The notes under the pieces are model-generated. The model was given only the letters and a program-made list of their open reading frames with translations, was not told the DNA's origin and did not search any database. DNA of 64,000 bases, from positions 5,357,181 through 5,421,180 of the forward strand of contig JAJEKV010000059.1 in the NCBI GenBank assembly GCA_021234155.1. Reading direction: 5' to 3'. A program made the translations under genes and the position numbers. Positions 4,671 through 43,590 of the stretch are shown in pieces. How positions within the stretch are numbered: the stretch's first letter is position 1; each line of letters starts with the position of its first letter. This DNA comes from Isoetes taiwanensis. Its lineage: Eukaryota; Streptophyta; Lycopodiopsida; Isoetales; Isoetaceae.

Positions 4671-5646
4671 AAAAATAAATAAATAAATATATTAAATCAC
4701 GCCCCCATGGGACCTTGAAGGTCATGGAGCGAAAAGGTTACATTTTCATTTAAACTTTGCATAGCAAGTTTCTGTGAAGTTCAACTTGCTTCATATATTT
4801 ACCAAGTAACATAGGCTCTGTATTCCACAATGAGATGAGATCAGTGGAATTTATGTCGAATTTTATCCTAATGTGCTCATACTCCCTATAAGTCAGAAAG
4901 ACATGTCTTTCATCTTCCACTTCTCCTAGATCACAGAGTGTACAGATCCTGTGTCCGCGAGGAACTTTGGCCCATCTTCCAGTCTCAATGTTCAGTCTAT
5001 GTGAGCCACATCTGTATCTGGAAATGGTATGTTTCAAGTACCTCAGGATGGAAGCCTTCAAATAGTTTTGTTCACCGTAGATTAGCATTGGGTGAACTTC
5101 TGTGATATAGAACTGCATTTTTGTCCCTGGAGTCTCCCATATTTTTTGCACTGCTTTGGCCTGCACCAGGTCTCGCGTTCCTAGTTCCGTGTCTGGCCAT
5201 ATAACATGACTGTCTGTACGAGAGTCTTAAAGAGTAACTTTTTTAGATTCCAATCTGTGAGTCCGGCCCTGTGACATCTACTCAGCATACCATATAGTGC
5301 CACTTTTCCCTTTTCCTAACAAATTCAGTCCATCCATTTATAATTTGAGCATATCTCTAATCCCAAAGTATTTGTAACTATCCACTATGTCAAGCTGGTT
5401 CCCTTAATACATGAAAACTGGTCGTGCCACTGTACCAAATACCATGATTTTTTACTTGTTTAGATTCACTGTCATACTCTTTGCTGCACAAAAATATGCA
5501 AGATTATCAAGATGCCCTTGGAGTCCTACTGGGGTGTCTGCAATTAGGACAACATCATCGGCATATAGTAGCAGCTGTACTAAGCAATCACCGAGTCTAG
5601 TCCCAGCAATCCGTCTGACTCTAAGCCAATTTTTCAGCTCGTCTAT
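4671..5646 (-). mobile_element. LINE-3, 3' part (reverse transcriptase end and tail)
   Basis: Reading on the minus strand, the sequence continues a LINE reverse transcriptase exactly from the point where the fragment at 20630-20790 stops. It opens DELKNWLRVRRIAGTRLGD, reaches the catalytic box LLLYADDVVLIAD (about 5585-5545), then has a stop in the palm (LNK-stop-KIMVFG). The C-terminal region (5166-4750) has CGSHRLNIETGRW and a CTLC...H zinc-finger-like motif as in other LINEs. The 3' tail is a short (TTTA)n run at about 4671-4690. It is a dead copy. Confidence 0.85.
5643..5646. repeat. Target-site duplication of TIR element A (left)
   Basis: CTAT here matches CTAT at 20630-20633 on the other side of the element. 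With one copy removed, the LINE reading frame is continuous (GIYI then DELKNW). Confidence 0.8.
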
Positions 5647-5671
5647 AAGCAGAGTTTCATTAAAGTTGGAA
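5647..5671 (+). repeat. TIR of element A, left end
   Basis: 25 bp starting AAGCAGAGTTTCATTAAAG and ending TTGGAA, perfect inverted match of 20605-20629. Similarity stops a few bases further in. Confidence 0.9.
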
Positions 5672-6899
5672 TTCTGAAGACAAGTTGGAATAATTTTTAT
5701 ATAGTATACCTTGGAGGGTTATGTATACCTCAATACTTATAGTACTAGTTACGGTGCCCAGCGTTGCTGGGCATAATTTGGGAACATGTAAATCTTTTGA
5801 ACCTCTTTGTTTCTCCAATCGAGCTAATTGTTCCATAATTGTCTCTAGTGCTTTTTGTCTCTAATCAAGCTTCATGTTTCATAGCTATCTCTAGTGCTTT
5901 TTGTCTCTGCGTGCTCTTCTCTCTATATTTAGCTCAAGCAGCAGCAAGCTGCCGTTCGTTTTTAGCACATCACCTTGCCATTTTGTAATGGGATACTCAA
6001 TAACGACACTATTATTGTTAGATGTTGTGTATTGGTTTTGCTCTATTGTTTTTTACTTAAGGAAGCCTTAATATACATCCATGTCAAAGGTTGTGCTATG
6101 AATTTTATTGTCCGGGTCTTTTTGTCAAAGGTCCATATTGCACAATCAACATTACATCATAATTTATGTATTGTAGTCATCAAAATGTGTGTTCTTACGT
6201 TGCATTTATGTAAAAACTACCGTGTCCAAAACCCAAGATTGAATTTTGAATTTCAAAGACCTTGGGGTTTCGTCCTCCCAAGGGACTTTCCTTCATTGAT
6301 TCTCTATTCGATTGGAGGAGTTTTATAATAAATTGTATAGCTACCAACGTAATCACAACAAAACATTCATGCGTTATGCGAACATTCATGCTTTTTAACA
6401 TACTTTGAACCATGAACCAAGTATGCTTTTGAGTGATCATTGGACTTCAGAGGTTTTATAATCTTGAATGCCAAGGCAAAACACGGTGATGTATTTTCTG
6501 AACTGAATCTGTTTTATTGTTCTCAATCAAATGAGATCTGTCCCACTTTGAAGAATTCATGTACATTTTGTTGCAAAAGCGTTTATCATTTGATGTTTCA
6601 ATTAAAACCAGCTCTTGCCAGACAAAGGAATAAGAGCTCAATTATTGTAACCATTGTAATCTTCTACATATCTGCATAGTGGCAAACTATTATCATATAA
6701 CATCGCACGAGATATTTGCTCCTTTATAAGCAAATGCAATGTTAATAAGCAAAAAATGAGTCCCCTTTCAGCTGTTCCCATACATTTTGACATGAAGATG
6801 ATTGTGGCTTTCTTGGCTTCTTTATGTCTTTTCCAACTTCTTTTGGAAGACTCTCGAGCTGCTTAACATCCGATTCGGACTCCACCAATGGAACCCATG

Positions 6900-7620
6900 T
6901 TGTATAACAACAATGTCATATCCGGGTTTTATCCTATTCTCTAAACTATAGCCAAAATCTTTTGTGGGAAGTACTTTAACTCCCATTTTTTTCTTATGTT
7001 CCCATCAACATTTAATCCCAAAATTTGATGGAATCGCCAAGCATTAAGATGACATCTTTATTATCAGAGCCCCCGATCAAGTAGAAATTCAACCGAGGGT
7101 TTGATGTTCTCTTCTATGCTTAGGCCAAAGATTTGAGGATATAGCAGCAATATGCTTCTTATATTAACCCAATGCTTTCAAAATAAGCAACCACTTTCTT
7201 CCATAACCAACAATATGAGGGAATTTAGTTAACACCGTCCAGAGCTTCTTCTTCGTTATTCACGATTCTAGAAGAAAATTGACATTATCACAAATTTTCT
7301 AGTCGCTATATGTGAGTATATGAGGAAACATCATCAGAATCTTTCTCCAAGAGTCCCTTTTGACACCTAAGCTTTCCAAATATCGACAGGTTATGAAGGT
7401 TGAAGTTCACACTACATCCAAAAACTGCGGGTCGCCTCAAAACTATATCCGGAATCTCTCGTGGATTGACTCCTAGATCCGGGCATAACTTAACATTTGG
7501 TTTCATAGTTGCATCTACATTGTAGCCTCAGAGATGAGGTACCCGGGTGACAATGGAATGCACTTGCTCGAAGTTTACCCTAATGCTTTCAAGATATATG
7601 AGAGAAGCTCCGGGAACAGT
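6900..7620 (-). pseudogene. mTERF-like pseudogene fragment in H6
   Basis: mTERF proteins are organellar nucleic-acid-binding proteins built of about 30-residue helical repeats, numerous in plants. Several such repeats can be read in shifting frames: VNFEQVHSIVTRVPHL, then MKPNVKLCPDLGVNPREIP, then DIVLRRPAVFGCSVNFNLH, and further on YPQIFGLSIEENIKPSVEFL. The alternating proline-capped helices, 'LGV...IP.IV...P..FG.S...N' spacing and order match the family. Stops and frameshifts separate the pieces, so no protein is made. Being wholly inside a Helitron, it is most simply a captured gene fragment. Confidence 0.75.
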
Positions 7621-8589
7621 TTTGACATCTCGAAAGCTTGAGGTTTTTGCAAAAGCCTTGAAAGGGTTTACAAAAGTTTCTCTGCAGCTTTTGAGGAAGT
7701 TTCAAAAACCGTAATATAATTAAGAGTGTTCTCTCCATGCTCACCGCAAGTCTTCAAGATAGGAAAGCAATGTTTCCACGAATCTCATGGGTTGATAGCT
7801 CTCTTCCTGCAAACATTTTGCATTAATGCTTTCAATGATCCAGAACATTGTAATCTTACACCTATATTAACACCTTGTCTACATCATGCTTTTTCTAAAA
7901 CTTCTCTTCTAACTTACAAAATATTATGTTTTTGGTGGACTATAAGGTGCAAATACTTTTTACAACATTGTCTCTATGGATTGTGGATAAATAGTGACAG
8001 AACTTACCACCACAGATACCGCGATTCGATGACGCGAATGCATGACATATACCAAGTTGCAAGTTCACCTATGTTGAGCATTACATCTCAATATTTATAA
8101 TAAACCTGAACATTTTAATGAGACTAACGCAAATTTGCATTGACTTGTAATTTAAAGAAATACCTGCTTTTAGGAAGCATTGCAATGTAAGCATCCTATG
8201 CGACTTTCAAAGTTGTCCTCATGCATCCCGACCGCTTTTACGTCGCCCAAAGATGACCAATATTTAGAAGTGGCTTACCAAAAACTATAAGCGTAAAGAA
8301 GCATGCACTTTAATCAAACATACTATTGTGTTTCATTTGGTAAGGCCTCTAAATTCATAGATCACAAAAATACTTGTTGTCAAGACTTAATAACACGCCT
8401 ACTTTATATAACCGATTAAATCCAACAAAAGCAACAGAATAAAAAGCAACGATGAATATAAAACACGCTTATAGAAGAAGAAGAGTCGCAAGTAGCTCAA
8501 AAAATAATCTTACCAAGAAAAAGAGTTGTTATATTTGCGGAATGGAAGCCTGTATTATGTGTACAAAGGATGCTTACCTAGTGCAAATG

Positions 8590-8960
8590 CGATCCATCCC
8601 GATCTTGTAATTTGCCTCCACTACTATCCAAACCCATAACCTCGAAAACCCGTGCCTCAGACACTGGACTTCTATCATAAACTCTCCGACAAACCCTCCA
8701 AAGGCTCATCTTTGTATGCGCTATCCGCTGCGTAGATTTGAGCGTTGCAGCTATCGGTCAAACAATACCAATCATCGGTTCTTACATGCCCGGGCCGCCA
8801 AAGCTAAAGCTTTCGCCATAGCTACGCTCAGAGCCATAAGTAGCGGTGACGATGCTAGAACCTCCACGGTAGGAGCTCGGAGGATAAACGCAAGACCGAA
8901 CTTGGAAATCATGCTGGCCGTTCTTGGTAAACCTATAGCATAATGCTATCATGCCTTGGT
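8590..8960 (-). other. Possible captured first exon / transit peptide
   Basis: On the minus strand an ATG at about 8912 opens a short frame, MISKFGLAFILRAPTVEVLA, rich in Ser/Ala/Leu with few acidic residues, ending after about 45 codons. It lies on the same strand as and upstream of the mTERF fragment in H6. That is what a captured organelle-targeting first exon would look like, but the evidence is compositional only. Confidence 0.25.
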
Positions 8961-9222
8961 CTTTTGATCCTCGCCGAGTAAGAAGGAATAGCGCTTAAAA
9001 CTCTTAGTGAACCTATAGCATAATGTTTGTCGGTTTCTATCATGCCTTGGTCTTTGATCCCGGGCCGAGAGTAAGAAGGAATAGCGGTAAAAGCGTGGTT
9101 GCGTTAACTCTCAACCCTAAGTTCGAAAAGATTGGCAAATCGTAACCCTAGGATAAAATGATTAAACCCTCAGCCGCTTCGGATCTAGGGCGTGATCCAT
9201 TACATAACATTATAATATAAGA

Positions 9223-9520
9223 TGGTTATGTGTATTACAAAAGGTTATGTATACCTTTGCATACTAGTATACCTCAATACATATAGTATGGTTATGTGTA
9301 TTACAAAAGGTTATGTATACCTGATAACAATAAGATTACAATAAGATAACAATAAGAGTACAACCAGATTACAATAAGATAACAAGTACTATTATTTTAC
9401 TATTACTTATATTACGGTTATGTGTATTACAAAAGGTTATGTGTACCTGTTGTATACTAAACACAACAGATTACAATAAGATAACAAAGTAATATTATTC
9501 TTCTACTATTACTCTCGAAT
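9223..9520 (+). repeat. Direct repeats flanking H6
   Basis: The unit 'ggttatgtgtattacaaaagg' followed by 'ttatgtatacct' occurs three times (about 9223, 9291 and 9417), with interspersed 'agattacaataagataac' repeats. The first two copies provide the empty site for H6. No gene is seen. Confidence 0.8.
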
Positions 9521-9940
9521 GATCAGAACTAGCGTATAGCGCCCGTAGATCCTTTTCGATCATGAACATTTGATACTCCCTATTCCTGGGGAGATAGATG
9601 ATAACATCGACGGCGGGAGGATAATGGCGAGGATTGAGAGCAACAAATGGTGAGCCAGGTCTTCAAGCGGTATATCTCGCCGCGGCACCGCTTGAAGTCC
9701 TCATGATTCATCTTGCAAGTGATAGAATCACGTTCAAGACCGCACGTCATAGCTAGGCGAGGAGGCCAATGTTCCGCACTCGACAATTTGATGTATATTT
9801 ATACCCACCAAAATTATTGATGGTATATACCCACCAAAATTATTGATGGTATATACTCACCAAAATTATTGATAGTATATACATAGAAATTATTGGATCA
9901 TATACATGTATGGTACTTTCGTGATAAAGGCAATGAACAC
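9521..9940. repeat. Spacer with 29-bp tandem repeat
   Basis: About 9789-9897 holds three to four tandem copies of a unit reading 'ccaccaaaattattgatggt' plus 'atata'. The rest has no supported gene; a 68-codon frame on the minus strand (9786-9580) has no recognisable domain. Confidence 0.6.
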
Positions 9941-10646
9941 CAATAATTCACATCAATAATCTTACTTCACTATAAAAGACTCCATCCGGTGGTAGAGCTC
10001 ATTCATCTCCCATGGCTTCCTTGCCCGATCGTCCGCAGAACATCCGATCCTTCAGGTGCTACCTTAGCTATAATGATCTGTAGGTGAATGCTACGAAATG
10101 GTATCAAACTTGATCCATGGGCAAATCAAAGCAGATGGTCTGCGAGTGCTTGCAAGAAGCTCACTCGTGTTAAGGTCCACCTTTATTGGCTTACGATCGA
10201 GATCTATGAAATTTGAATAGCATCACGTGCTTTGATGTTGATGATGAGTGAATCAGATTCCGCTAAGGATATAATAATGACATGAGTACCTAACTATGCA
10301 AGCCGCCTTTAATTTCAATCACACCTATATTAGTCAAGCAAAGAATGACGAAAGTGAATCATCGATGATATGTATACATTAAGGATATAATAATATAAGC
10401 ACTTATGATTTGTGTATCCGTTAAGGATATATATAATATAAGCATAGTGAATATTAGTTGATGTATAGAATCGAGTACATGATAGAATCGACCATGACAG
10501 TACATGATACTTGTATACTCAGACGAGTACATAATACTTGTATACGCCAATGATGGCTTCTGATCCACCCCAATAATTCACATCAATAATTTTACTTCAC
10601 TATAAAAACAGCTCCATTCGGGGCTAGAGGTCATTCATCTCCCATG
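9941..10646 (+). promoter_or_regulatory. Duplicated TATA-box/leader/ATG module
   Basis: A segment of about 75 bp occurs twice, at 9941-10014 and 10571-10646. Each copy has the same AT-rich lead, a TATAAAA box (9971 and 10601), a leader of about 35 nt and an ATG in CCCATGG context (10012 and 10644). The following frames are short and differ: MASLPDRPQNIRSFRC and MDYLPSSIHYIEAIKC. This looks like a duplicated promoter plus first-exon start from a captured gene, with no complete gene attached. Between and after the copies (to about 11050) I see no other gene. Confidence 0.45.
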
Positions 10647-11051
10647 GATTATTTGCCTTCTTCTATTCACTATATCGAGGCGATCAAGTGCTCAATGAGC
10701 CACTCGATCTTGTTGGTTGCCTAGATGTGCATCTTCTTCTTGATCCCTACCGCGAAGAAAAGCTTTGGGCGGCCGAGATTCATTGCCTCGTCAATTCGAT
10801 GTTATGATCCATCTGATTTGGCTCCTCGCGCGCATGAGCTATGAGATATCGGGGGATCACTACTACTGATCCTCAAGATGAATGAATCACCTGTTCAACA
10901 TATAAGCACTTCTGACCATCTTATCTATGAATCATGTATGCATTTATATATTAAAGATGTAAGCAGTTATATATGATCACAAATATAGTAATGTACAAGA
11001 TCTTATGTATTAAGATGAAAGATATGTATTACAAGTACAAGATCTCATGTA

Positions 11052-13760
11052 TTAAGATGAACAATGTGCTATGTCTTTCCACATGTCTACAATATATTTC
11101 GAATTTGACCTGCAGGCCTCTTGCCATTGGCATCGGGCATAATGAATAGCATCTAAATTTTCATACCTTGAAGGATCGGAAGGATTAGGCCGCCAACGCT
11201 TAGTCAATCTTTGCCTTTGTAGTCCCCTCCAAGAGGGCTTCCACCACGATACAAAAATATGGCCAAAATATGTAGATTCTGGATCAAGAACAGCATTCTC
11301 CTCTGCATATCCTAACCAAGTGGCAGTGTTATCATCTCCAGGTCTGACTAGAACAAACATACCCTTTGTCACATGTACGTGAGGATCAAACTCTTCAAGA
11401 GGCAACACTGGACGGCCATCTGATGGGCCACAATAAGATGGTAAAGGTCGTGTGACCAAAGGCAGACATCGCCGACCTGGAACAAATGCTGTTTGTTCTA
11501 GAGGAGCTTGTCTTGTTTGTGGCCAAAATGCATCATTTTGAGGACGTCCTGAAGCAACATCCTCCAAAGAGATAAGAAGCTGGCTCCAATACTCAACACT
11601 TGCCGTGTATTGCCTTGCAAACAAGCTACTTTCTTGATTCTTACATATGTCCTTCCATATGTGATGTATTTGTTGATGCTATCCTTCAACCTGGAAGATC
11701 TTTTCAATGTTGGTCTAGGAGGAATATTTTGTGGCACACCACTTGGTATCATTGGCTGACCATGTTCATCCTCTTTCCACATTCTAACTCCTAGAGAATC
11801 TTTGGAAGCACTCTTTATGTGTAGGACGATTTTGTATTGCATAACAGCCAATCTCCGCCATCTTAAATTTGAAGAGCAATGGTTCAGTATGCCCAACCGG
11901 GCGTTGGCCCTTATCGGGGATGAATTCTTCACAAAATCCTTCCAATTTGGAACTTCATCAATAAAGTATGGAATTGGGGATTTTGCATTGCATTTGCTAA
12001 ACAAGTAAAGTAGCTCGGTAGTGTCAAAGCATCCGAATTTAACTCATCAAGGTTGAAAAATTTCCAAATAAAGCATCAATATCATCATGGGTGTGGCCGA
12101 CCATCATAAAGCCCACTTGGATCTCATCAAAGACCTTAAGCCAAGTCAAATAAGATAAGTATGAAAAGACATACCTATTTTTTTTTTTGCCCCTTTGCAT
12201 TATCAAGTTGCAAATAGAGATTTCGGGAAGAGGGTTGAACACCTCAGATTCGATTTGTAGTTGAAGTATTTGGCAATACTTCTCCCATGGAAGCAAGTTT
12301 GTTCTTCAAAGGATTGATGTCCTTGACTCGCTTGCATCCATTTGCAATCTAGTGGAGCTTACTTCCACATAAGTCACCTATCTTGTCCTCTTGCACCAAT
12401 TCCAAGTTATGCAATATTCTAGAAAGTGAACCAATGTGGAAGTTTGAATCATCTTTCCATAAATCAAGTGAAAAATGACCATAGGCACGACCACCATGCC
12501 CATGAGTCAAAGCTCTGGCCAAACCGCTCTTCAAGCGATCACCTCTCCATACGATTTTGCTAGATGATGACTTCTAGGCACTAAAGTCTTAACCCGATCC
12601 ATCTTATCATGTATTATACATAGATGATTTCGTGAGAGACATTGTGACAATGCTCTCCAATGCCAATATTGACTCTCTCGCAAGAGCGTTGTTCTAGCAT
12701 ATGAGCCCGACGTTGAATTGCAAGATTTCGCCGTCTCTCTTGTATCTTTTGTTTTTCCAGCTTTTTGCTTAATTACCACGCAGATGTTGCATTTAGAGAA
12801 GGCTGTATTTTTGCAATGCTAACATCCGGAAATTCCCTTTTCCATATACTATAAAAAGAGTTCAAGGCTCTGATTGTTCTGTAAGCTCTTCAACGACCGC
12901 TCCAACTTCTTTATGTATAAGCTTCTTATTAAGAATGGAAGGAAGCTTTATACATTTTCTCTTACATCATCTCTACCTCTTTTGCTCTATGGGGAATACT
13001 TTTTCAAACATTCTCCGAATGAATCATCTAGCAGCACACATTCGGTGGCGTTGTAGTGGATCCGGGCTTCTTAGAGCCAAGATTACCATGTTCAGCTACC
13101 TTTGCACCTGCTTCATATCTCTTTTTCTCCAATTGTAAATGTTGTTGGACCGATACCTAAAGCCATCGCCACCCACCAGGGCACCAATTCCATCCCCTTG
13201 AGCACTATCCTCGTCCTCTCCTTCTCTGTGTAAGTCACACTTTCAAAGACGTCAAAAAATACGTAACCCTTGCATTGTATGGTTGAGATAAAAATTCTTT
13301 TCTTAATTCACATACTTGATGCTTGGTAAGTTTCTTGTTGCAAGTATTTTTGCAGAGTTTGTCTTCATGAACTTATTGATTGAAGTTGTGGAGCATAGCC
13401 TTTCCTCTTGCTCTTTCCCTTGGGTTGTCTTGGAATCCTATGTGTGTAAGTATACTTCCTTTTCGTTTTGAATTGAGCCTGAATGTTGTCCTCAAATGAT
13501 TCTATTTCCATATCCTCATTTTCTTTAGCTTCTCGAGCTGCGAGACATGTTGTGAGACGGTCCTTCCATCCCGCAAAGATCACATCGCTATTTTCCCATT
13601 GTACAAGTGCATTTTTCTCGGCGGCCTTTACGCACAAGCATGACATTTGAGATCCTCTGTAATTAGTGCAGGAAGGATCTTTTCCCCACAGAGCCCCACC
13701 TTTGAGTCTCCTAAAATCCATCGTCATCAAAGCATCACGGGGATCATCAAGACAATTATG
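11052..13760 (-). pseudogene. Decayed GHTHDDID-motif gene, candidate transposase
   Basis: Conserved blocks follow in order on the minus strand, in shifting frames. About 13730: RRLKGGALWGKDPSC. About 13365-13450: a lysine-rich region. About 12800: YSIWKREFPDVSIAKIQ. About 12740: an arginine-rich 'KKIQERRRNLAIQRRAH' stretch. About 12620: LCIIHDKMDRVKTLVPR. About 12480: GHFSLDLWKDDSNFHIGS. About 12240: YLQLDNAKGQ, frameshifted in an A-run into NRYVFSYLSYLTWLKVFDEI. About 12085: VGFMMVGHTHDDIDALFG. Then a long C-terminal part (12004-11052) rich in Trp and Arg. From memory, the QLDN...NKNRYVF...GHTHxDID signature marks a widespread eukaryotic family (DUF7869-type). The HDKMD, QLDN and GHTHDDID acids suggest an RNase H-like fold, which is inference. 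It lies inside TIR element A. Confidence 0.6.
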
Positions 13761-14689
13761 GCCTCGTGATATTTACGCCCGGTCACATGCATGAAGAATG
13801 TGGCAATGCTTATCCAAGAGATCAGTTCTTGAGAAACTAGGTGGTGGTTCATCATCATCCGATGCTATCCTCGCGAGGAAAAGCGTGTACCTAGATCCCT
13901 TTGAGGATCAATTTCTTCATCGCATCCGATTAATCTCTCATGATTCTACATTCGAGGTCGGTGATGGAGTAGCTAAATCAATGGCATGATATCTTATATC
14001 CCGCCGAGGCTATTCGATAAAAACGTGTCCGCGGCCTCTTCAATGTTGCCGGCGCCATCACATGGAATCGGAAGGATGTGGGTAGGCACCACGGCCTCGA
14101 TAACACCTTTGCCCCTACGTTGAGTGCGTCAACATTCTTCCCATGGATGCAAGTTCTATTCACCAAGACACCCTTACCAACCCGTGATGTTATTATCGAC
14201 AAAGGTTCACCATATTCTGTCTGGCTTTGTTTGAAGGAGCGGGCGGTCGAAGTCGATGATGTTGTGGAGGGACTACTAGGCAAGTTGGGGGTTTCTGATC
14301 GAGGGCGTTTCATGACATAGATTCGCGGCTCCTTCCACGATTACTTCACTTAATTTCGAGGCCATTGATAAATGTCCCCACGGCCCGACAATGTTATCTC
14401 TGCTCCCTCACCGCGGAATGGGAAGCACATGGGTGGGCACTATGGCCCCGGTGACCTCCACGACCACATTGCACCATGGAATGTTCACCATGCGAGATGG
14501 CCTCTATGCAATTCATGTCCCCCAGCAACTACCACATCCCCATCGACAAAGGTTACGCAGGGCCTTTTTCTGTGAGAATCAATACACATATATATATACT
14601 TGTTAGAGACATGCAACCCTCGATGACATATACTTAGTAAAAAAATAGCGAAAATGTGAAAGAAATTATCTACATGAGACAAATGGCAC
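13761..14689. other. Coding-like, unidentified; internal duplication
   Basis: Fairly GC-rich sequence with frames on both strands but no domain I recognise. The segment around 14065-14215 resembles the one around 14408-14560 ('atgtgggtaggcaccacgg' versus 'acatgggtgggcactatgg', and both later contain 'atcgacaaaggtt'), so a unit of roughly 340 bp is duplicated. This may be the remains of a captured gene. Confidence 0.35.
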
Positions 14690-14945
14690 CGCCTCCATTT
14701 ACATTTAAATGAAATGCCGCCATTTACCTTTTTAAATGGCGCAGTTGCCATTTACTGTCAAAGGCCATTTCCCTTTAAATGGAATAGCGCCATTTTCCTT
14801 GAATGGAGCAGGCTTATTTCCTTTTAAATGGCAGCGGTACATATTTAAAGGGAAATACAAATGGCCCATTTCAAGGAAAATGGCGCTTACCGCTCCATTT
14901 AAAGGGAAATGGCCCATTGATGTAAATGGCATCTTTATTCTAAAT
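14690..14945. repeat. Palindromic AAATGGC / GCCATTT cluster 1
   Basis: More than ten short words of the form AAATGGC, GCCATTT, TTTAAATGG and CCATTTAAA alternate on both strands, giving many overlapping hairpins. The same vocabulary recurs at 16180-16690, 18310-18480 and 20110-20470 in this element and at 39060-39260 in the second copy. Confidence 0.7.
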
Positions 14946-15149
14946 GCTATATCTAATAGCTAGAGTTATGGATTCCTATTACTACAAGATTCAAAGAAGA
15001 CATCAATTGTTGAGAACTTATCTAATTGAACAAGATAGAGAAGATCTACCCTTAAACATATTAAAATATTTAACATCCTACATCCTACATTAAAATATAC
15101 TAAAACATTTTACTAGAACTGGAATAGCCTCTAACCCGGAGGTCATTGG

Positions 15150-15900
15150 CGATTCGGGATTCCGCCATATCGAGAGAATGCGCTGAAAAGAATTTGGTCA
15201 AAGCTCGAATAATGGACAAGTCCGGATAAGCGCTTGGAATCGGACAAGCGCTCGAAAAATGAAGACGGCGCCACTAGAATGAAGCCAAGCGCTGAAGAAT
15301 GAAGCCGAGCGCCTAAGAACGAAGGCTAGCGGCTCAAGAATGAATGAACAAGGGCTAAGCGGTACCAAAGAAAGACAAGCGCCAAAGGCGGGTTCTTTGC
15401 GCTATCGATTAGGAACCAACGTCTAAGATGGAATAGGCTTCTGAGAAAATACTGCACAATCGACCAAGAGATCTGGCCTTGAAATACCTACGAATATTGA
15501 AACGAGGGCGAGGTGCATAAAACCGCGGAGTGAGGTGTCGAAAGTATAAGCGCCTTCTAATGACCATATGCGCACTCCCGACAGCAGACAGCGAAAGCGC
15601 CCATTATGAAGTGGGCCGGCGGGCAAATTCAAAGTTCAAAATGCAGGCGGGCAAATTCAAATTTCAAATTTGGCGGGCCCGAGGCGGGACAGTGCGGTAG
15701 GAATGACTTAAACTACCTAAAATTTTATAATGGCGAGCGGGCGGGAGAAACGGATTTGGGGAAAATTCAAAATTTTAAAATTTGTAGAGGCGGATTGGCC
15801 AAGGGAAAAATGAAATTTTCAAAATTTCGAAGGGCGGACGGCCCGGCAAGAATTTGAAAGAGGCAGGCGGGTAAAATTGGTTTTCTTTTCTTTCCCCGAC
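15150..15900. repeat. Short-period repeats, no gene
   Basis: About 15225-15400 has repeated 'aagcgctgaagaatgaagc'-like words; 15600-15880 alternates 'ggcgggcaaattcaaa' with AT-rich palindromic 'aaattcaaatttcaaattt' pieces. No coding sequence is supported. Confidence 0.5.
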
Positions 15901-16179
15901 TTTTCTTTTTCTTTTCTTCAGTCAATTTTCATTTTCAATTTCATTGTTCTTTTCTCCCGCCTCCGCCTTCCGACTCGGGCCTGGGACCGCTTCAGCGCCC
16001 TAGACATTTCTCTCTCCTATTCAACCATCTTCTCTCTCTAGCGCTGTTGATCCGGGGCTTCGGAAAAAAAGTGGAGTAGGATTTATATGGTCTATTACTT
16101 TTATACTTTTATACAATGGCGCAATCTTGATCAAACCAGGAGCCGTGCTCGGGTTAGTATCATTGTTTCTATTATCGAT

Positions 16180-16690
16180 TTGTAGTGTCTAGGATGGCGG
16201 AAATGGCGGGCCAGCCATTTCATTAGGAGAGGGTGGGCTTGTAGCAGCCTTTTCCTCCTATAGTTTGTGAAATGGCGCAGGTGCGCCATTTCCATAATGT
16301 CTGTTAATATTCTTGTAGAAGCGGACCCATAGAAGAGCAAATAAATTAGTCGCCATTTAAACAAAATTGCCAGGCTAGCCATTTAGTCCTCAATAAACAC
16401 TGCATCATTTGCTCTATTATCGTCCCAAAACCAAATGACGCGAATCGCCATTGGAATAAAATGGCACCAAGCCATTTTGCTCTATTGCTCTATTATATAA
16501 AAAGCTAAATGGCTTAGTGTATATTTAGACTAAATAAGCCTTTTTGCGCCATTTGCTCTAATATCGGTCCCTTCAAAAAAAACCAAATGGCGCGGATCAT
16601 ATTTAGACTAAATTTGCGCCATTTGCTCTATTATATAAAAGCTAAATGGCGCAACTGCGCCATTTAGTCTAAATGTCGTTTGCCTGTTTT
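16180..16690. repeat. AAATGGCGC / GCGCCATTT cluster 2
   Basis: Repeated inverted pairs of AAATGGCGC and GCGCCATTT with 'ttgctctattat' spacers; for example one pair at about 16642-16665 forms a near-perfect hairpin. Confidence 0.7.
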
Positions 16691-17950
16691 AACTTTCTAG
16701 CACATGCCATTTCTCTCACCATGCTTAACTTCGCCCGGCTAGTCTTGTAGAAGAAATGGAACGTGGTGACTTGAGGAGCATAGTCCTCATTGGAAGGTCT
16801 TGGTGTATGGAGATCGTTAGAGCCATACCCTTGACTGAAGGCGTAGAGCCCAACCAAGGGAGACAAGAGGCGAGAACTTTGCCTCCTTGTCCAAATCAGT
16901 CACAGTGAAGAAGGAGCCTCAAGAGTGGCCCGGATGGGCATCATTGTCAACATGAGGGAAGTCAAGAAACAAGGAAGACTTGACTTTCTTGGTTGCCTGA
17001 TGGAAGATCCGGTCCTTTGCGGCAAAGATTGATCTCTATTGCATGGATTGGCGGTGCTACGAGCCACGCAATGATGGAGTCCAAAGATGAAGGACCAAGC
17101 ACCGTCGGCCAAGAAAAAGGTTGGCATTTGCCATCTTATGAGTCCGTGAGAGCAAGCGGATATCAAAGGCACCGGTAGAGATCCTCAAAGGATTGATATT
17201 CTCGGCGGCGGCAATCTCCGTGTCCCACATTGTAAGAGCGAAGATCTCGGGCAACATGCCGCTAAATAATGGATAGCGGATGGTTCTTTGGAGAGATGCA
17301 GAGAAAAGGTGTAAAACTAAAAATGCCACCAAAGCCGGCAAAGGAACAAAAACAGTGGAGGTGGTGATGTACCGGGAGACGTAACAAGAAGAAGGGCGAG
17401 AAGTTGAGAAGGGGAGGAGCATAGGGATGAGAAGAGGGATGAGACCCGATGCTCACAAACATGATTCTCCCGTGAAGTCCAATCGAGAAGCCTGGCCGAT
17501 GAGAAGCTCTTGATAGTGACCGCACTATTAGTGACAATAAGGAGGCTACAAAGCACATAAGAAATGTAGCATCCACGGCCAGATAGCACTCCAAAGAAAG
17601 AGAAAGCCGTAAACCAAAGTACAGGATAAGGGCGGAAATTACAAAGATTGCAGATCTTGAAGTGCCTGAGGAACTAAAGATGGACCGTAAGAAGAAGAAA
17701 TGGCGGAGGAAACACTAAAGAAAATACAAAAAGCACGGCCACATGTTCCCCTTGAGTCACATACACCAGAAGAATATCTATGCGGGATCTAGAAGAGGCC
17801 CCACCTAATATGACCGCCAGGGGGTTATTAACCCAGAAGCATGTTAGGAGGCTCTGCAAATCATTTCTTGAGGATCCACACCGGTATTCCTCCAAGTTAG
17901 GATGTAGTGCCCTTTGATCCGGATACAAAGGAGTTCTTTGGTCAGTCGCA
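16690..17950 (-). pseudogene. Unidentified coding remnant, membrane-like
   Basis: Several minus-strand frames end to end look like a broken gene. They include YPDQRALHPNLEEYRCG followed by NPLAVILGGASSRSRIDILL (17928-17674), a hydrophobic stretch MECYLAVDATFLMCFVASLL (17594 on) and IRYPLFSGMLPEIFAL (about 17290). Hydrophobic runs suggest a membrane protein. I cannot assign a family. It sits inside TIR element A and could be captured host sequence. Confidence 0.3.
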
Positions 17951-18050
17951 GGAATCTGACTTGATCGAGGAAAAAGATTTTATATTATCAATGGTAATCA
18001 TTCGATTATTTTTGCTTTCATTTCGTGTGCGATAAGTTGGGGGACAGAGG

Positions 18051-19680
18051 ATGCTAGAGTCTGAGCTCAAGATCTATGTCTATAGAATATGCAGAGTTCT
18101 TTCTGGAGAGATCAGTGACCTGGACCTTCTTCAGCTCAGTGTGGATGTGAATGATATAGTAGCAAAGACTGTCTTCAAGGAACCATATGTGGATCAGATC
18201 CACCATCTTGCAAGCGATTACGAGAATGCGGAAGACCAGCCCCTTTGGTAAAGAACCCGATCCAAGAAGTGGCGAGTACAAGGTATGTTTCGTCTCCTTA
18301 CCCATACATTTATCGAAATGGCCTTGCTGGGCGCTATTTGAGTTGAAATAAGCGCGATGCGCGCTTATTTGAGTTGAAATGGCGCATTTGCGCCATTTGA
18401 TAAATAAGCAGCATTTGCGCGCCATTTGATGTACATAGCGCAGCTGCGCCATTAGATGTAAATAGCAACATTTGAAATTCTAAAATCGCCAGCTCTCTTG
18501 CAGCACTACCTTGAAATGGCGGACAAGATTGCGAGGGGCAAACACACGAAGGATGTCAATCCGGTTTGTCTTCATGCGGATGATGTCTATGCACTCTTCC
18601 GCGGATGTGGAACAAATGGAGGAAGGAGAACTTAAGGACAACGGGGTCAAGCTATAGTAATCAATTTTGCTAAAGACAAAGATTATCAGTGATAACTACA
18701 TTAGATGCATGAGGGGCTTGGACTATGATGATTGTAGAAAGGTCCTCGAAGAAGCTTTAGCGAGGATATATCGTCAAAGTCACCTCAGTTACAAAGGCGA
18801 TAATTTCTTCAAGGCGAGGGGCGTGAACTTAAGAGTACTTGCTTACATGAAGAAGGAGATCTGCACTTCATTGCAGATCAAATTGGCACTAAGTACAAGA
18901 CCGAGGAGGACCTACGGAAAGCTACGAGACCACTTCTCGGATAAAGCACTTACGGTTTGGGGGTATGCCACCATAAGTGGGTCTGGGAAGGAATACTCAA
19001 AGAGGGAGTTCATGGTAACATGCCATTCTCCTTGGCCAGGTCCATTGAAAAATCCTTGACTGAAGCGAGAAAAGGACGCCAAGATGGTTTGTGGAGCATG
19101 TCATCCTTGCTGGGATTCCGAACGAACATCTGATTCTACACTGCAAAGCATGATATGTTTTAGATGCAAAGGCGGCTTACTCCGGTTTGGAAAAGTGAGA
19201 TCTGTAATCGGCGTTCTTGATAAAGTCTCACGAGATGGCGGATGTAGAGACATCTTGGATTCTATGTTTCGTCGGGGCGGAACATAACTTACTATTTGCG
19301 GCGCTTTGAAAGACTAGAATCGAGGTCAAGAGTGTTTGTAGGAATCTATGAAGAGGAGAGGCTGGAGCTGGTGGTTCGGGAATCAAAGAGCCACAAGCTC
19401 TTCTATTTGCTCTGAGGATTTCGCACACGAGACGGGAGAGCCCGACAAGACGGACCTTAGGCTATTTGGCGACCATCCTAGAAAGCTCCCATAAATTCCT
19501 CCTATTCCTAAGGAAGCCATCGGAAGTGAGGGCGATGTTATGGCTAAAAACTCATGCAAGACAGGTTTAAGTGGAGTTTGGTATGGAGGGAGAATATCGG
19601 TGCATAAACAGATTGGTCCTGCAGAATAGCGTTCTACCTTGTTGATAAGCTCTGCGCCCTCAAGGTAACATCGCATTACT
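18051..19680 (+). pseudogene. Unidentified coding remnant, plus strand
   Basis: Frames at 18051-18251 (MLESELKIYVYRICRVLSGE) and 18667-19059 are open and of ordinary composition, but no domain is recognised and the frames do not join. An alternative frame around 18860-18960 reads DLHFIADQIGTKYKTEEDL and may be the true one. A cluster of AAATGGCGC repeats (18310-18480) lies between them. Confidence 0.3.
18310..18480. repeat. AAATGGCGC / GCGCCATTT cluster 3
   Basis: Inverted pairs of the same 9-mer words as elsewhere in the element, including 'aaatggcgcatttgcgccat'. Confidence 0.7.
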
Positions 19681-20109
19681 AGATTTCTTCTCTGGTGGAG
19701 CCTTCTCTAGGGCATCCCTTCATGTAGGGAAGAATCCGAGTGTGACATCTGAGCATGAGTTAGGAAAGATGAAATGCGAGCGGGCATTCTCAGGTAGGGT
19801 CGAGAGCGTCATGTACCCCGGCTTGACCTAAAGGCCATTGACCAACGCCAACGGGAAGTCTTGACTTTGCAAGATGGTGAATCTCGGAAGAGGGCAGATT
19901 TAAGAAGCTTCTCACTGAGAGAAAGGTGAGACGTCGTGCCAAAGTGGAGCAGAGCGAGGATCAAATTGACCGCAGTGAAAATTAACCGGATGATTATGAA
20001 AGTCTCGATGAACACTTCGCCAATGACTATTAAAAAATTACGTGTTTTGAAAAATTGTATCTTATATAATATTTCTATTAATATATATATCTACATGGTC
20101 TTTCGAAAA

Positions 20110-20604
20110 TATGTGTTATCTATAGCAAAATGGCGCGAGAGCACTATTTGCTTGTCTTCACGTTCACGCAAATAAGCTACCAAGACTATTTGCTAAGCTC
20201 TTAAATAAGCGGCGCTGCACTATTTGCTTGCTTTCACGTTCAAGCAAATAAGCGGCTACCGCACCATTGCTTCCTTTCACGTTAAAGCAAATATCGGCGT
20301 TTCGCTATTTGCTTTGTGGTTATTTCTAAGCTAAAGGAAGCGGCGCCATTTTGTTTGCTATTTGAAACTTTTGGCAATTTAATATCTGCTTTTTGTGGTT
20401 CTCGGGCGCTTTTCCTCATACTTTCCAAGTAAATGGCGCCATACTTCTCTTTCGACAACTAAAACCGCTATTTGTTTTATATTAAATGTAGCGGTTTTTG
20501 CATGATAACTGGTTTCTTTTTAAGCAAATAGTGCCATATCTAGCCATAAATGTGTGATAAAACAGGGAAGAAACTGATTTCACGAGAAATTGGAATCACG
20601 AAAT
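20110..20604. repeat. Subterminal repeats of element A, right end
   Basis: The last 500 bp inside the right TIR is dense in 'ctatttgctt', 'caaataagcgg', AAATGGCGC and related inverted words. The first 340 bp inside the third terminus (38948-39280) has the same words. Confidence 0.65.
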
Positions 20605-20629
20605 TTCCAACTTTAATGAAACTCTGCTT
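20605..20629 (-). repeat. TIR of element A, right end
   Basis: Perfect 25-bp inverted copy of 5647-5671. Further in, the sequence 'ATTTCGTGATTCCA' (minus strand) resembles the same place in the copy at 38923, so 38923 corresponds to this end. Confidence 0.9.
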
Positions 20630-20790
20630 CTATGTATATACCAAACAAGGTCGGTGACAGAGGGCATCCTTGTCTTACTCCGATTGTGCTACTGACCTCC
20701 CTTATATCTGCTGCAACTTTGGTTATAACTTCCTCATATAGCCTTGCAACTACGCCTCTAAGATACCGCTTTTAGATCAAGCCAACAGGA
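20630..20790 (-). mobile_element. LINE-3, 5' part (RT motif B region)
   Basis: On the minus strand: RGVVARLYEEVITKVAADIR, then GVRQGCPLSPTLFGIYI ending exactly at the target duplication of element A. The next residues, DELKNW, are at 5646 downward. Upstream similarity to a LINE fades near 20790, so the copy is 5'-truncated. The fragment also carries the CTAT at 20630-20633. Confidence 0.85.
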
Positions 20791-28737: not shown

Positions 28738-31700
28738 TCTTATATTATAATGTTGTGTAATGGACCGCACCCTAAATCGGACGGTCGAGGATTTGATTGA
28801 CCAATGGTGGAGATGATGTGTGCGTGTCTTCAACTAAAATTTCATCTTGACTACGGCTTCAATATGAAAGGGAAAAGGAAAAAGGAAAAGGAAAAGGAAA
28901 AGGAAAAAGGGAAAAGGGAAAAGGGGAAGGGGAAGGGAAAAGGAAAAATGATGAAAGGGGAAAAGGGAAATGTAAAAGGGGAAGGAAAAGGAAAACGATG
29001 AAAGGGAAAAGGGAAAACTATGAAAGGGAAAATGGAAAAGGAAAAGGGGAAGAGAAAAGGAAAAAAGATGAAAGGGAAAACGGAAAACGGAAAAGGGAAA
29101 ATGGAAAACTAAAAGGAAAAAGGTAAAAGGGAAAAGGAAAAGGGGACGGGAAAAGGAAAACGATGAAAGGGAAAAGGGAAAAGGGAAACGGAAAAGGGGA
29201 AGGGAAAAGGAAAAATGATGAAAGGAAAAAGGGAAAAGGGAAAAGGGAAAAGGGGAAAGGAAAAGGAAAAACGATGAAAGGGAAAAGGGAAAAGGGAAAA
29301 AAGATGAAAGGGAAAGGGAAAACGGAAAAGGGAAAAGGAAAACGGAAAAGGGAAAAGGGAAAAGGGAAAAGGAAAAGGGGACGGAAAAGGAAAAACGATG
29401 AAAGGGAAAAGGGAAAAGGGAAACGGAAAAGGGAAAGGGAAAAGGAAAAATGATGAAAGGGAAAAGGGAAAAGGGAAAGGAAAAAAGGGGAAAGGAAAAG
29501 GAAAAACGATGAAAGGGAAAAGGGAAAAGGGAAAAGGAAAAGGAAAAAGGAAAAGGAAAAACGATGAAAGGGAAAAGGGAAAAGGGAAGAGGAAGAGGGA
29601 AGGGAAAAGGAAAAAAACGATGAAAGGGAAAAAGGAATAGGGGAAGGGAAAAGGAAAAACGATGAAAGGGAAAAAGGGAAAAGGAAAAAGGAAGAGGAGA
29701 AGGGAAAAAGGAAAAACGATGAAAGGGAAAAGGGAAAAGGGAAAAATGAAAAGGAATAAAGGGAAAGGTAAAGAGGAAAAAGGAAAGAGAAGGAGAAAAG
29801 GAAAATGGAAAGATAAAAGAAAATAGAAAAAGGAATAGAATAGGCGAGGGGGAAAGGGAACGGAAAAAGAGCAATCATGAGAAGGGTAAGAAGTAAAGGT
29901 GAGAAAAGGAGAAAAAAAAAGGTAAGGGAAAATAAGAAAAGGTTGCAAAAAAGTCTATGGGAAAAAAGAAAAGTAAAAAAAGGAAAGAGAGGGGGGAAAG
30001 GGAAAAAGAGAACTTGGGAAAAGGGAACGAGAAAAAAGAGAAAAATGAAAGGGCGTGAAAAAAGGGAAAAGAGAAAGGGTGAAGAAAGAGAAAAGGAAAG
30101 CAAAAAGAGCATCGAGAAAAGGAAGAGAGGGAAAGGATGGAAAAATGAGGAAAAGGTGGGGGAATTAGAATAGACAAAGGGTAGGGAGCAAGGAATAGGA
30201 AAAGAGGAAGGAGAAAAGGGCACGAGAAAAAAGGGAAGAGGGAAAGGTGAGGAAATAGAAGAAAGAAAGGGAAAAAAAGAGTATGGGAAAGGGAAAAAAA
30301 AAAGAAACAAGAAAGGAGAAAGTGGAAAGGGGAAAAGGGGGAAGAAGATGGGGAAAGAAGGGAAAAAGGGTACATAAAAAAAGGTTGAGAAAAGGGAATG
30401 GAAAGAGGCATATGAAAAGCGAAAGGAAACGGAAAGGGAAAATGCAAAAGGAAGGGGAAAGAGAAAGGAAAGGGAAAAAAGGGAACATCGAAAGCAAAAG
30501 GGGTGGGGAAAGTATGAAAAGGGAATGGAAAGTTGAAAGGAAAAGGGAAGCGGAAAAAGGAGAAGGGAAAGCAAAAAGAGCATGAGGAAAAGAGGAGAGA
30601 GAAATGGGAAAAGAGATGGGGAAAAGGGCAACGGATCAAGAGGAAGAGGGTGGGGAAAGGAAGAAAAGGGCACACATGAAAAGGTAAGCAAAAGAGAAAA
30701 AAAAAATGCATGAGAAAGCGGGAAAGAGAAAAGGAAAAGGAAAAGGAAGAGGAAGGGGAAAAGGAAAGGAAAGAGAATAGTGGAAAAATGGGAAGAGCGG
30801 GAAAGATAAAAAAGGAAGGGAAAAAGGCGATAAGAAAAAAAGAAAAAAAAAGGGAAAGGGGAAAGGGAAGGCAAAGGGAGGGAGAACGGGGTTAGAAAAA
30901 AAAAAGGGAGAATAAAAAAAGAAAGAAATTAAAGGTTCCTACAATACAAATGCCAGGACACCAACATTACCAGTTCCAACAAACCTTATTATTTCTAGGT
31001 CTCCAACATTGCCAGTTCCAACCTGTGCCCAGCAACGCTGGGCACCTTAACTAGTGGTATAAGAAAAACCTGATAAATTTAAGATCTAGCCCAATTGTTA
31101 ACCCTCTTAGATGCTATGGCTACTTAAAGGGGTATGAAAATGTTGGGGAGTTGAAGGGCCTTCCACCACTAAGGCTCATGTTGTTCTGCATTTTTGTTTC
31201 CAATAAATGTTGATGTACTTTATGCAATCAAGATAACAAATTTTGCCCATGTGATCTGTACTGGCTGCAAGTGATGACTACGTTTAGCCTTACATGAAGA
31301 GACCACCTCAAGAAAGTTGGGATTTATAATGCTTAAGTTTATATCCTAGATTGTGTGAACCATGAACGATGCTTGCAAAAATTGGTAGACTATGAGTGAC
31401 TATTGTGTGAGATTTGTGTTAATGTATAAGGGGTTGCCCCTTACATAAACACAACTAGGCTTGGTTTTTTAAAATTGTTGAATAGGACAACAAGATTGTT
31501 GAATAGGACAACAACGCACACCTCATGAAACATAGTTGGAATCATAATTGTACAAGGGCAAAATTGGCATTCATTTCACATTTGACATTTTGATGAGACC
31601 ATTGCATTCGATATAAGATTTATAGAGATTTCTATTGTCTTAGGTCATTATGATAATACAATTAATGCTAGCATAAGTGCAAATGTTAAGTCATAATGTC

Positions 31701-38922: not shown

Positions 38923-39280
38923 AAGCAGAGTTTCATTAAAGTTGGAAATTTAAGTGATTCCATTTTAAATTTCGAAATGAAATTGTTAGTTGTTGTTTTT
39001 CACACATTCAAACAATCAAATCAAAGCTATTTACTTAAAATGCACAAGGATTAGCCTGAAAACCGTGCTATTTGACGAAATGGGGAAATCGGTGGTAAAA
39101 CAACCTTGGTTGCGCCATTTGAATAAAATTGTGGAATAAAAGCAATAAAGTCATTTGCATTTGAAGTGAATCATAAGGACAATACACGGGGAAAAAGCAA
39201 ACAAATAAGCAGCACAGCGGTTTGTTACAATATATTCATATTGCAAATGGCGCTTTGCTATTTGCTTTTACAAATAAGAT
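38923..39280 (+). mobile_element. TIR element B, one end
   Basis: The 25-bp terminus AAGCAGAGTTTCATTAAAG...GGAA is identical to both TIRs of element A and continues like A's right end (ATTT..GTGATTCCA). It begins precisely within a tRNA repeat unit, after 'cttttg'; the expected unit continuation 'cacactctcgatggg' is missing. The subterminal region has the same AAATGGCGC and 'ctatttgctttt' words as element A. I find no opposite end in the rest of the window, so the element is either longer than 25 kb, truncated, or its end is deleted. Confidence 0.7.
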
Positions 39281-39720
39281 ATACAAAAGGGGCAAAAACA
39301 TTAAGATCATTATGTGTCATCGATTATTCAAAAGATTAATCAGTATAGTAACCATCAATACCACAGGTAAATCTTATATACAAGTATGATATGCAAATCA
39401 TTTTTCAATATTCTTCACCAAAAATCTTATCATCCGCTTTATCAATATCATCAGGGTTAATCTTACGCCCGGTCAATCTGCGAATCCGTGTCTTGTCCAA
39501 CTTGTTCCCGGATCTGTGGCATCTCACGCACCAGCGCGCTGTGACCCCTCTCCTCCACCACCATGTGATGACTCTCACGGGTAGGTCGGTCCGGTGCCAA
39601 AACCTTACGAGGCCATGGCTCTTTGGATCAAGCAAAGGGATTAATGGCGTTGTCAATTCTTCCAAGAATCCCTAGCATACATTGGATCTTTTTTCCATCA
39701 TATAGGCCACACTACTCCTT
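39281..39720. other. Unidentified; weak minus-strand coding signal
   Basis: An 86-codon minus-strand frame (39665-39405) and an overlapping one containing PRKVLAPDRPTRESHH are open but not recognisable. It could be the tail of the gypsy element G2, whose integrase is cut at 57469, but I cannot show that. Confidence 0.25.
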
Positions 39721-40149
39721 TTTAACTGCAATGATGCCCTAGTAAAAGCCCCACCAGAAAAAAAGTCCAGAACAAAGTTACCTGGAGGGCAGAGCTTATC
39801 GACAAGTTATCTTTGTTGTAGCAGGACCAAACGCTTGTGAACCAAGTATTCCCCTTCCATACCTTGCCAATTTGTATTTGAACTGTCCCTCGGGGCTTGT
39901 TAGCGATTCTTCGGCTCGGCACCTTGCATCTTTATGGGTCTTAGGAACTTCAGGTGCTTTCCGGGGATGTTCACCATAAAACCTGAGATCCAGGTGTTCA
40001 TCAGGCTGTGCTTGGGCTGAGATCCTGGTGGCTAGAACCACAGCTGTTGGCTCTTTTATGCCACCACCTGGTGCCAATGACAGAGATTGGGTCTAGAATA
40101 CCTTTGGTTATGTTCAGGAAATGGACAATACTCTGTATAGCTTATCACT

Positions 40150-41761: not shown

Positions 41762-43590
41762 TCTTATATTATAAAATTATAGCGTGTGTCTTCAATGGAG
41801 CCCTAAATCGGACGGTCGAGGATTTGATTGACCAATGGTGGAGATGATGTGTGCGTGTCTTCAACTAAAATTTCATCTTGACTATGGCTTCAATATGAAA
41901 GGGAAAAGGGAAAAGGAAAAGGGAAAGGGAAAGGGAAAGGGAAAGGGAAAGGGAAAAGGAAAAGGAAAAACGATGAAAGGGAAAAGGGAAAAGGGAAAAG
42001 GAAAAGGGAAGGGAAAAGGAAAAACGATGAAAGGGAAAAGGGAAAAGGGAAAATGAAAAAGGAAAAGGAAAAACGATGAAAGGGAAAAGGGCAGAGGAAA
42101 AAGGGAAGGGAAAAGGAAAAGGAAAAACGATGAAAGGGAAAAGGGAAAAGGGAAAAGGAAAAAGGAAAAAAAGGAAAAAGGAAGGGAAAAGGAAAAATGA
42201 TGAAAGGGAAATGGGAAAAGGAAAAAGGAAAAGGGGAAGGGAAAAGGAAAAGGAAAGACGATGAAAGGGAAAAGGGAAAAGGAAAAGGGGAAGGGAAAAG
42301 GAAAAATGATGAAAGGGAAAAGGGAAAAGGAAAGGGGGAAGGGAAAAGGAAAAACGATGAAAGGGAAAAGGGAAAAGGGAAAAGGAAAAACGATGAAAGG
42401 GAAAAGGAAAAAGGGAAAAGGGAAAAGGAATAAAAGAAAGGTAAGAGGAAAAAGAAAAGAGAAGGAGAAAAGGAAAAAGAGAAAGATAAAAGGAAATAGA
42501 AAAATGAATAGAATAGGCGACGGGAAAAGGGAAAGGAAAAAGGGCACCGCGAGAAGGGTAAGAGGTAAGGGTGAGAAAAGGAGAAAAAGGTAAGGGAAAA
42601 TAAGAAAAGGTTGCAAAGTCCATGGGGGGCAAAAGAGAACTTGGGAAAAGGGAACGAGAAAAAGCGAAAAAAGGAAAGGGCGTGAAAAAAAGGGAAGAGA
42701 GAAAGGGTGAAGAAAGAGAAAAACGGAAGCAAAAAGAGCATCGAGAAAAGGGAAGAGGGAAAGGATGGAAAAAGGAGGAAAAGGGTGGGGGGGAAGTAGA
42801 ATAGACAAACGGTAGGGAGCAAGGAATAGGAAAAGAGGAAAAGAGGAAGGAGAAAAGGGCACGAGAAAAAAGGGAAGAGGGAAAGGGTGAGGAAATAGAA
42901 AAAAGAAAGGGAAAAAGAGTATGGGAAAGGGAAAAGAAAAAAGAAACAAGAAAGGAGAAAATGGAAAGGGGAAAAGGGGGAAGAGGATGGGGAAAGAAGG
43001 AAAAAGGGTACATAAAAAAAGTTGAGAAAAGGGAATGGAAAGAGGCATATGAAAAGGGAAAGGGAAAATGTAAAGGAAGGGGAAAGAGAAAGGAAAGGGA
43101 AGAAGGGAACAGCGCAAAGCAAAAGGGTGGGGAAAGTATGCAAAGGGAATGGAAAGTTGAAAGGAAAAGGGAAGCGGAAAAAGGAGAAGGGAAAGCAAAA
43201 AGAACATGAGGAAAAGGGGAGAGAGAAATGGGAAAAGAGATGGGGAAAAAGGCACGTGATCAAGAGGAAGAGGGTGGGGAAAGGAAGAAAAGGGCACATG
43301 AAAAGGTAAGCAAAAGAGAACGAAAAAAATGCATGAGAAACGGGAAAGAGAAAAGGAAAAGGAAAAGGAAGAGTAAGGGGAAAAGGAAAGGGAAAAAGAG
43401 TAGTGGAAAAATGGGAAGAGCGAGGAAAGATAAAAAGGAAGGGAAAAAGCTGATAAGAAAAAGAGAAAGAAAAAAAGGGGAAGGGCAAAGGGAGGGAGAA
43501 GGGGGTTAGGAAAAAAAAAAGGGAGAATAAAAAAAGAAAGAAATTAAAGGTTCCTAATTTATGCCCAGCAAGGCTGGGTACCATTACTAG
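41762..43590 (+). mobile_element. Helitron H4, polypurine body
   Basis: A complete 1829-bp copy, useful as family reference. 5' end TCTTATATTATAAAATTATA after A; leader with CTAAATCGGACGGTCGAGG; tandem purine units beginning ACGATGAAAGGGAAAAGGG; a conserved irregular purine domain from 'ggttgcaaagtccatggg' (about 42607); 3' hairpin GCCCAGCAAGGCTGGGT and CTAG at 43587-43590 before T. Deleting it restores the L1 frame across the ORF2 start (DISC-IT(W)NLQGLN). No genes. Confidence 0.92.

Follow-up and report, generated by a model that had tools for sequence, protein, structure and literature searches.

To determine what kind of mobile element interrupts a reverse transcriptase gene of Isoetes taiwanensis, 64,000 nucleotides of its genome (assembly GCA_021234155.1, contig JAJEKV010000059.1, positions 5,357,181-5,421,180 of the forward strand; hereafter the window) were analysed computationally. 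The original prediction, made from the letters of the window alone, had described the insertion as a 15-kb element with terminal inverted repeats (TIRs), exact borders and no recognised type. We conclude that a cut-and-paste DNA transposon with exact borders has inserted here, and that the genome contains many copies of it. The family to which it belongs very likely comprises two-gene, cut-and-paste elements of about 11 kb that encode a DDD (three-aspartate) transposase of Pfam family DUF7869 and a partner protein, the product of a gene referred to here as gene B.

Borders and Insertion Site

The predicted termini, two perfect inverted repeats of 25 bp, are identical to each other, and CTAT is found on both flanks of the element (Table 1). 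When the flanks are joined with a single CTAT, the frame of a long interspersed nuclear element (LINE), GVRQGCPLSPTLFGIYIDELKNWLRVRRIAG, reads through without a break, again as predicted; the window copy thus interrupts a LINE reverse transcriptase. A search of the genome with a joined site of 300 bp revealed, among the 40 matches listed (40 scored of 151 candidates), at least 18 LINE copies that span the site in one piece with 85-97% identity, while the LINE copy of the window matched it as two halves only.

Table 1. Coordinates of features in the window
Feature	Position	Strand	Basis or remark
Left target site duplication, CTAT	5643..5646		Duplication comparison; site empty in 18 LINE copies
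Left 25-bp terminal inverted repeat	5647..5671	+	Conserved left end of the family reaches 5744 (98 bp)
Nested Helitron, 3,478 bp	5745..9222	-	5'-TC, hairpin, CTAG-3', between A and T; foreign to the native element
Putative transposase gene remnant (DUF7869 protein), frameshifted	11052..14330	-	Strongest DUF7869 match at about 11847-12188; 5' limit approximate, set by eye from N-terminal similarity to relative P0006
ATGGCGC / GCGCCAT motifs, most of those in the window copy	14735..18455		Four more at about 20129-20440, one at about 14051
Gene B remnant (second gene), frameshifted	17548..20031	+	Comparison with other copies
Gene B intron, GT-AG	18283..18503	+	Same position in L012, L020 and L028
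Right 25-bp terminal inverted repeat	20605..20629	-	Identical to left terminus
Right target site duplication, CTAT	20630..20633		Duplication comparison across copies
3' gene B remnant and right end of a second, diverged family member	38923..40092	-	Third copy of the 25-mer, at 38923

The Family across the Genome

The exact 23-bp terminus occurs 269 times (141 + 128) in the 1.658-Gb genome, and its reversed control 0 + 0 times. Sequences at 20 of the 22 left-end places in the first listing of the terminus were retrieved; 19 of them begin with the exact 25-mer after flanks that differ from one another, and the remaining locus, L028, has two mismatches in it. Ends were then paired using 100 listed left ends (out of 138) and those right ends located on the same contig range (73 of 98). 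A right end faces the left one within 35 kb in 43 of these 100 cases, and two left-right combinations within that distance are oriented otherwise. The spacing of the facing pairs is 10.8-11.9 kb in 26 cases and 13.7-34 kb in the remainder.

Target site duplications were compared in the window copy and in 20 of the 21 facing pairs seen among the first 100 places, a 34-kb pair on contig C457 being omitted. An exact 4-bp duplication was present in all 21 pairs checked; since pairs were selected by exact 23-bp ends, the sample is biased toward young insertions. In 14 of the 21 the third base ahead of the duplication is C, and in nine the third base past it is G. Partial symmetry of this kind would be expected if the transposase subunits form a symmetric pair. 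Conservation extends inward from the termini: in 18 of the 21 copies the left end is invariant from base 24 to base 98, and the other three have a common 1-bp deletion, accompanied by two further substitutions in one of them. Inverted pairs, 4-bp duplications and empty sites, which the original prediction had proposed to look for in the genome, were all found. The paired ends, the duplications and the lack of matches to the control rule out a dispersed short motif.

Native Length and a Nested Helitron

While the predicted borders were exact, the predicted length of 15 kb is not the native one. Helitrons are defined by TC...CTRR ends, a hairpin 10-12 nt from the 3' end and insertion between A and T with no duplication (PMC10741241; this and the other papers below are cited from excerpts). 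The segment at 5745-9222 agrees with this definition in every respect tested (ends, hairpin, A/T site, no duplication), the hairpin GCCCAGC-AAC-GCTGGGC lying 11 bases before its end on the minus strand. It is a non-autonomous Helitron that carries mTERF-like coding pieces, and because these pieces fall inside it, the idea that the surrounding element had itself captured an mTERF gene was rejected. Nesting of the 3,478-bp Helitron explains the excess length of the window copy, and a single native unit of 15 kb was rejected on these grounds. The core of the window copy with the Helitron removed is about 11.5 kb; three other copies read from end to end are 10,989, 11,066 and 11,160 bp long. The Helitron is missing from 19 of the 20 loci read.

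An insertion of about 4 kb (approximately 299-4330 of L028) is present at the same place as the Helitron of the window, and its first 55 bp are 85% like the Helitron end; it represents either a shared or a repeated insertion event. Five loci with similarity to the Helitron lie at 10.26-10.43 Mb of contig C908: four are about 95% like its low-coordinate 1.7 kb, and the fifth over 355 bp.

The DUF7869 Gene

The gene in the left half of the element belongs to Pfam family PF25273 (DUF7869), which is listed as being of unknown function; here the family is linked to a transposable element whose ends are defined. The domain was detected in 18 of the 20 loci and not in the part read of the other two. 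Relatives of the protein keep three acidic blocks, with a conserved D in each of HDKMD, LDN and HTHxDID. The model predicted for the catalytic region is RNase H-like; its best structure matches, obtained with a second-look aligner only, are mariner transposases and retroviral integrases, with Tn5 and Hermes (hAT) further down the same list. Sola has no entry in this list, which carries no weight in either direction, and a Foldseek comparison based on the full-length model alone gave no informative match. Because three acidic blocks are kept on a predicted RNase H-like fold, the DUF7869 protein is very probably a DDD transposase, with the D residues of the blocks as its putative catalytic residues.

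No other Pfam transposase family exceeded the cut-off in the DUF7869 protein of the family or in six relatives. Matches below the cut-off were to Transposase_23 (TNP1/En/Spm; E-value 6.6e-4, residues 19-70 of P0006) and, in the protein of the family itself, to HTH_Tnp_1 (E-value 0.075). A profile of 60 DUF7869 relatives matched none of the sequences of solved structures at E-values up to 10. Among the relatives listed, an organism is given for three, all of them Physcomitrium proteins. Neither the name DUF7869 nor three forms of its motif were found in the open-access library of papers searched, a result that says little about Repbase.

A first-look search of the I. taiwanensis genome yielded 9,902 DUF7869 candidates, and all of the 150 scored passed the cut-off; none of 14 control genomes gave a match. 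Two loci, L073 and L074, encode DUF7869 proteins with the motif GHTHDQIDQMF in frames of 987 and 857 codons and apparently represent another clade. L073 has no inverted repeat of at least 10 bp flanked by a direct repeat. An 11-bp inverted repeat with a 3-bp direct repeat is present at L074 and was not taken as a real end.

Gene B and a Palindromic Motif

Gene B occupies the right half of the element, on the strand opposite to that of the transposase gene. Two deep lineages of it were compared (eight comparisons): the proportion of synonymous differences (pS) is 0.78-0.90, and that of nonsynonymous differences (pN) is 0.11-0.30. Between the L028 and L012 copies, the 238 exon 1 codons compared give a pS of 0.84 and a pN of 0.11, and the 182 exon 2 codons give 0.89 and 0.18. 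Since synonymous sites are saturated while protein change is not, gene B has been under long purifying selection. Within lineages dN/dS is 0.24-0.69, as expected for decaying copies.

A search of 5.8 billion proteins with a joined gene B query (residues 185-680 scored; 6,597 candidates) revealed no relative outside this genome at an E-value of 0.001, and comparison with Pfam, NCBIfam and PDB gave no credible match. A ParB-like identity, suggested solely by resemblance seen by eye around NMTARVVNPEHV ... FYIINGNHSVSAAQ, received no support from profile tests and is not claimed. Within the genome, 4,845 gene B candidates were found, with identities of 51-100% among the 150 scored. Many of these 150 form a further group that shows 51-58% identity and whose long open frames reach 605 codons.

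A palindromic motif, AATGGCGC, is strongly over-represented in the element. The motif or its complement occurs 17-24 times per copy in four copies, compared with 0.30-0.45 times expected from first-order resampled sequence; in the core of the window copy the count is 18, versus 0.39. The sites occupy the stretch between the two genes, the intron of gene B and the vicinity of the right end, and AATGGCGC is a putative binding site for a protein of the element.

Mosaic and Decayed Copies

Copy C158 is 84-95% like the window copy over the first 4.5 kb, the half with the transposase gene, and 51-71% over the rest. The same switch in similarity between the halves was observed when L012, L014 and L025 were compared with C158. 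We therefore conclude that a single, recent transposase half is combined with two different lineages of gene B.

The interiors of three full copies of one lineage differ by 7-10%, with 233-289 gaps per pair, mostly of 1 bp; some of these small indels may be assembly errors. Subject to this and to the bias of the sample toward young insertions, the combination of intact ends and perfect duplications with broken genes suggests movement in trans, in which old, broken copies would still be moved by transposase made elsewhere.

Other Features of the Window

The original prediction had not mentioned the third 25-mer copy, at 38923. No left end of the second family member to which it belongs (38923-40092) was found within the window. 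Another long reading frame starts just past this remnant. A purine-rich repeat is present in three copies, about 85% alike, at 1146-2694, 28770-30941 and 41765-43593. Since short matches to the end of the nested Helitron lie nearby (around 1091-1147, 2645-2698, 31018-31063 and 43544-43591), the three repeats may be another Helitron family. At 48371-56381 lies a long array of tandem repeats, each of about 450 bp, in which some pieces are inverted.

Discussion

The observations can be arranged into a model of transposition. The DUF7869 protein, acting as an RNase H-fold DDD transposase, would cut at the 25-bp inverted ends with their conserved subterminal stretch, and join the element to the target DNA with a stagger of 4 bp, so that repair yields the 4-bp duplication. 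The gene B protein, a conserved partner, would assist, perhaps by binding the repeated AATGGCGC palindromes, and decayed copies with perfect ends would probably be mobilised in trans by the transposase of other copies. The window copy itself is decayed, lies inside a LINE reverse transcriptase and has taken up a Helitron. A different account, in which DUF7869 and gene B are carried along and an unrelated transposase from elsewhere mobilises the ends, would explain why copies are decayed inside while their ends are intact, and why two of 20 loci have no DUF7869 in the part read. We consider it very improbable: a protein with a predicted RNase H-like fold and conserved acidic blocks is present in 18 of the 20 loci, and the window element yielded no further transposase domain.

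Several known superfamilies can be set aside. hAT elements duplicate 8 bp, and piggyBac and Kolobok elements target TTAA; the family described here duplicates 4 bp, and TTAA is found in 0 of its 21 duplications. Maize Spm resembles the family in its two-product organisation and subterminal repeats. CACTA (En-Spm) elements resemble this family in their large size (often more than 10 kb; PMC10741241), in their short TIRs and in the sub-threshold Transposase_23 match of P0006, but they have a 3-bp duplication and CACTA/CACTG ends (PMC10741241), in contrast to the 4-bp duplication, the ends AAGCAGAG and the DUF7869 transposase observed here. Mutator elements, with duplications of 7-12 bp, and Tc1/Mariner elements, with a TA duplication (both PMC10741241), were likewise rejected. 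The likeness to Mariner/Tc1 and to retroviral integrases is in the predicted catalytic fold, whereas the family lacks a TA target, its protein and element are much larger, and no sequence match was found among solved structures. Ginger elements have 5'-TG...CA-3' termini, TIRs of 40-270 bp and duplications of 4-6 bp (PMC10741241); the termini here are AAGC...GCTT and the TIRs are 25 bp long.

Comparison with published descriptions makes Sola the first candidate superfamily. We lean slightly towards the view that the elements form a new family within Sola, probably within Sola1, and that DUF7869 is Pfam's name for a Sola-type catalytic domain; this placement is compatible with the two-gene transposon described above and decides filing only. 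Sola elements (Sola1, Sola2 and Sola3) have a DDD triad, a 4-bp target site duplication, TIRs of 11-1124 bp and lengths of mostly 2-9 kb, with some above 15 kb, and are present in the moss Physcomitrella (PMC10741241). Sola1 is tabulated in moss (PMC9033089), and the duplications of Sola2 are 4 bp long and AT-rich (PMC3627910). The 4-bp duplications of all 21 pairs, the conserved D-D-D blocks with their presumed catalytic role and the three Physcomitrium relatives agree with these descriptions, as do the 25-bp TIR and the length of about 11 kb, a weak test given the breadth of the published range. Against Sola, curated bivalve Sola1 elements average 5,445 bp (PMC10294476), half the length found here, and the excerpts of Sola descriptions mention no second conserved gene. 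In one classification Sola is grouped with RNases H1 and kept separate from the mariner and integrase clades (PMC3985635) that provide the best structure matches of the DUF7869 model, which is weak evidence.

It is possible, if rather doubtful, that DUF7869 instead defines an uncatalogued eukaryotic DDD superfamily, characterised by 4-bp duplications, an obligate partner gene conserved over deep divergence with palindromic binding sites of its own, swapping of halves between lineages and, within a single genome, candidate relatives in the thousands. A superfamily or family yet to be described was one of the options given by the original prediction. The Repbase criterion for separate superfamilies is that iterated protein searches fail to converge (PMC4455052). 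The lack of any other Pfam transposase family above the cut-off, the failure of the 60-relative profile to match solved structures and the missing literature record of the domain would suit such a status. Yet the features match those of Sola as far as tested, the matches to Transposase_23 and HTH_Tnp_1, although below the cut-off, count against it, and absence from open-access papers has little bearing on Repbase content. The original prediction had also offered Sola and Academ as examples of 4-bp groups of which the element might be a very divergent member. Compared with Sola, which fits in duplication, DDD blocks, TIR length, size and occurrence in moss, Academ fared less well. The AcademX lineage has duplications of 3 or 4 bp (PMC10045372), with which the 4-bp duplication agrees, but a Pfam scan of six frames of the decayed window copy alone (E-value limits of 1 or 10; one plus frame lacked about 530 bp of the right end) revealed neither a nuclease domain (AcademX) nor a helicase domain (AcademH), and we regard an Academ (AcademX) assignment as highly improbable.

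With its placement in a family of two-gene transposons, DUF7869, a domain of unknown function, gains a function that can be tested, that of a DDD transposase. The exact ends, 4-bp duplication and empty sites of the family make it possible to study DUF7869 genes elsewhere as parts of transposons, where they might otherwise pass for host genes. The exchange of halves, together with the conserved second gene, makes accessory transposon proteins and the movement of decayed copies testable questions.

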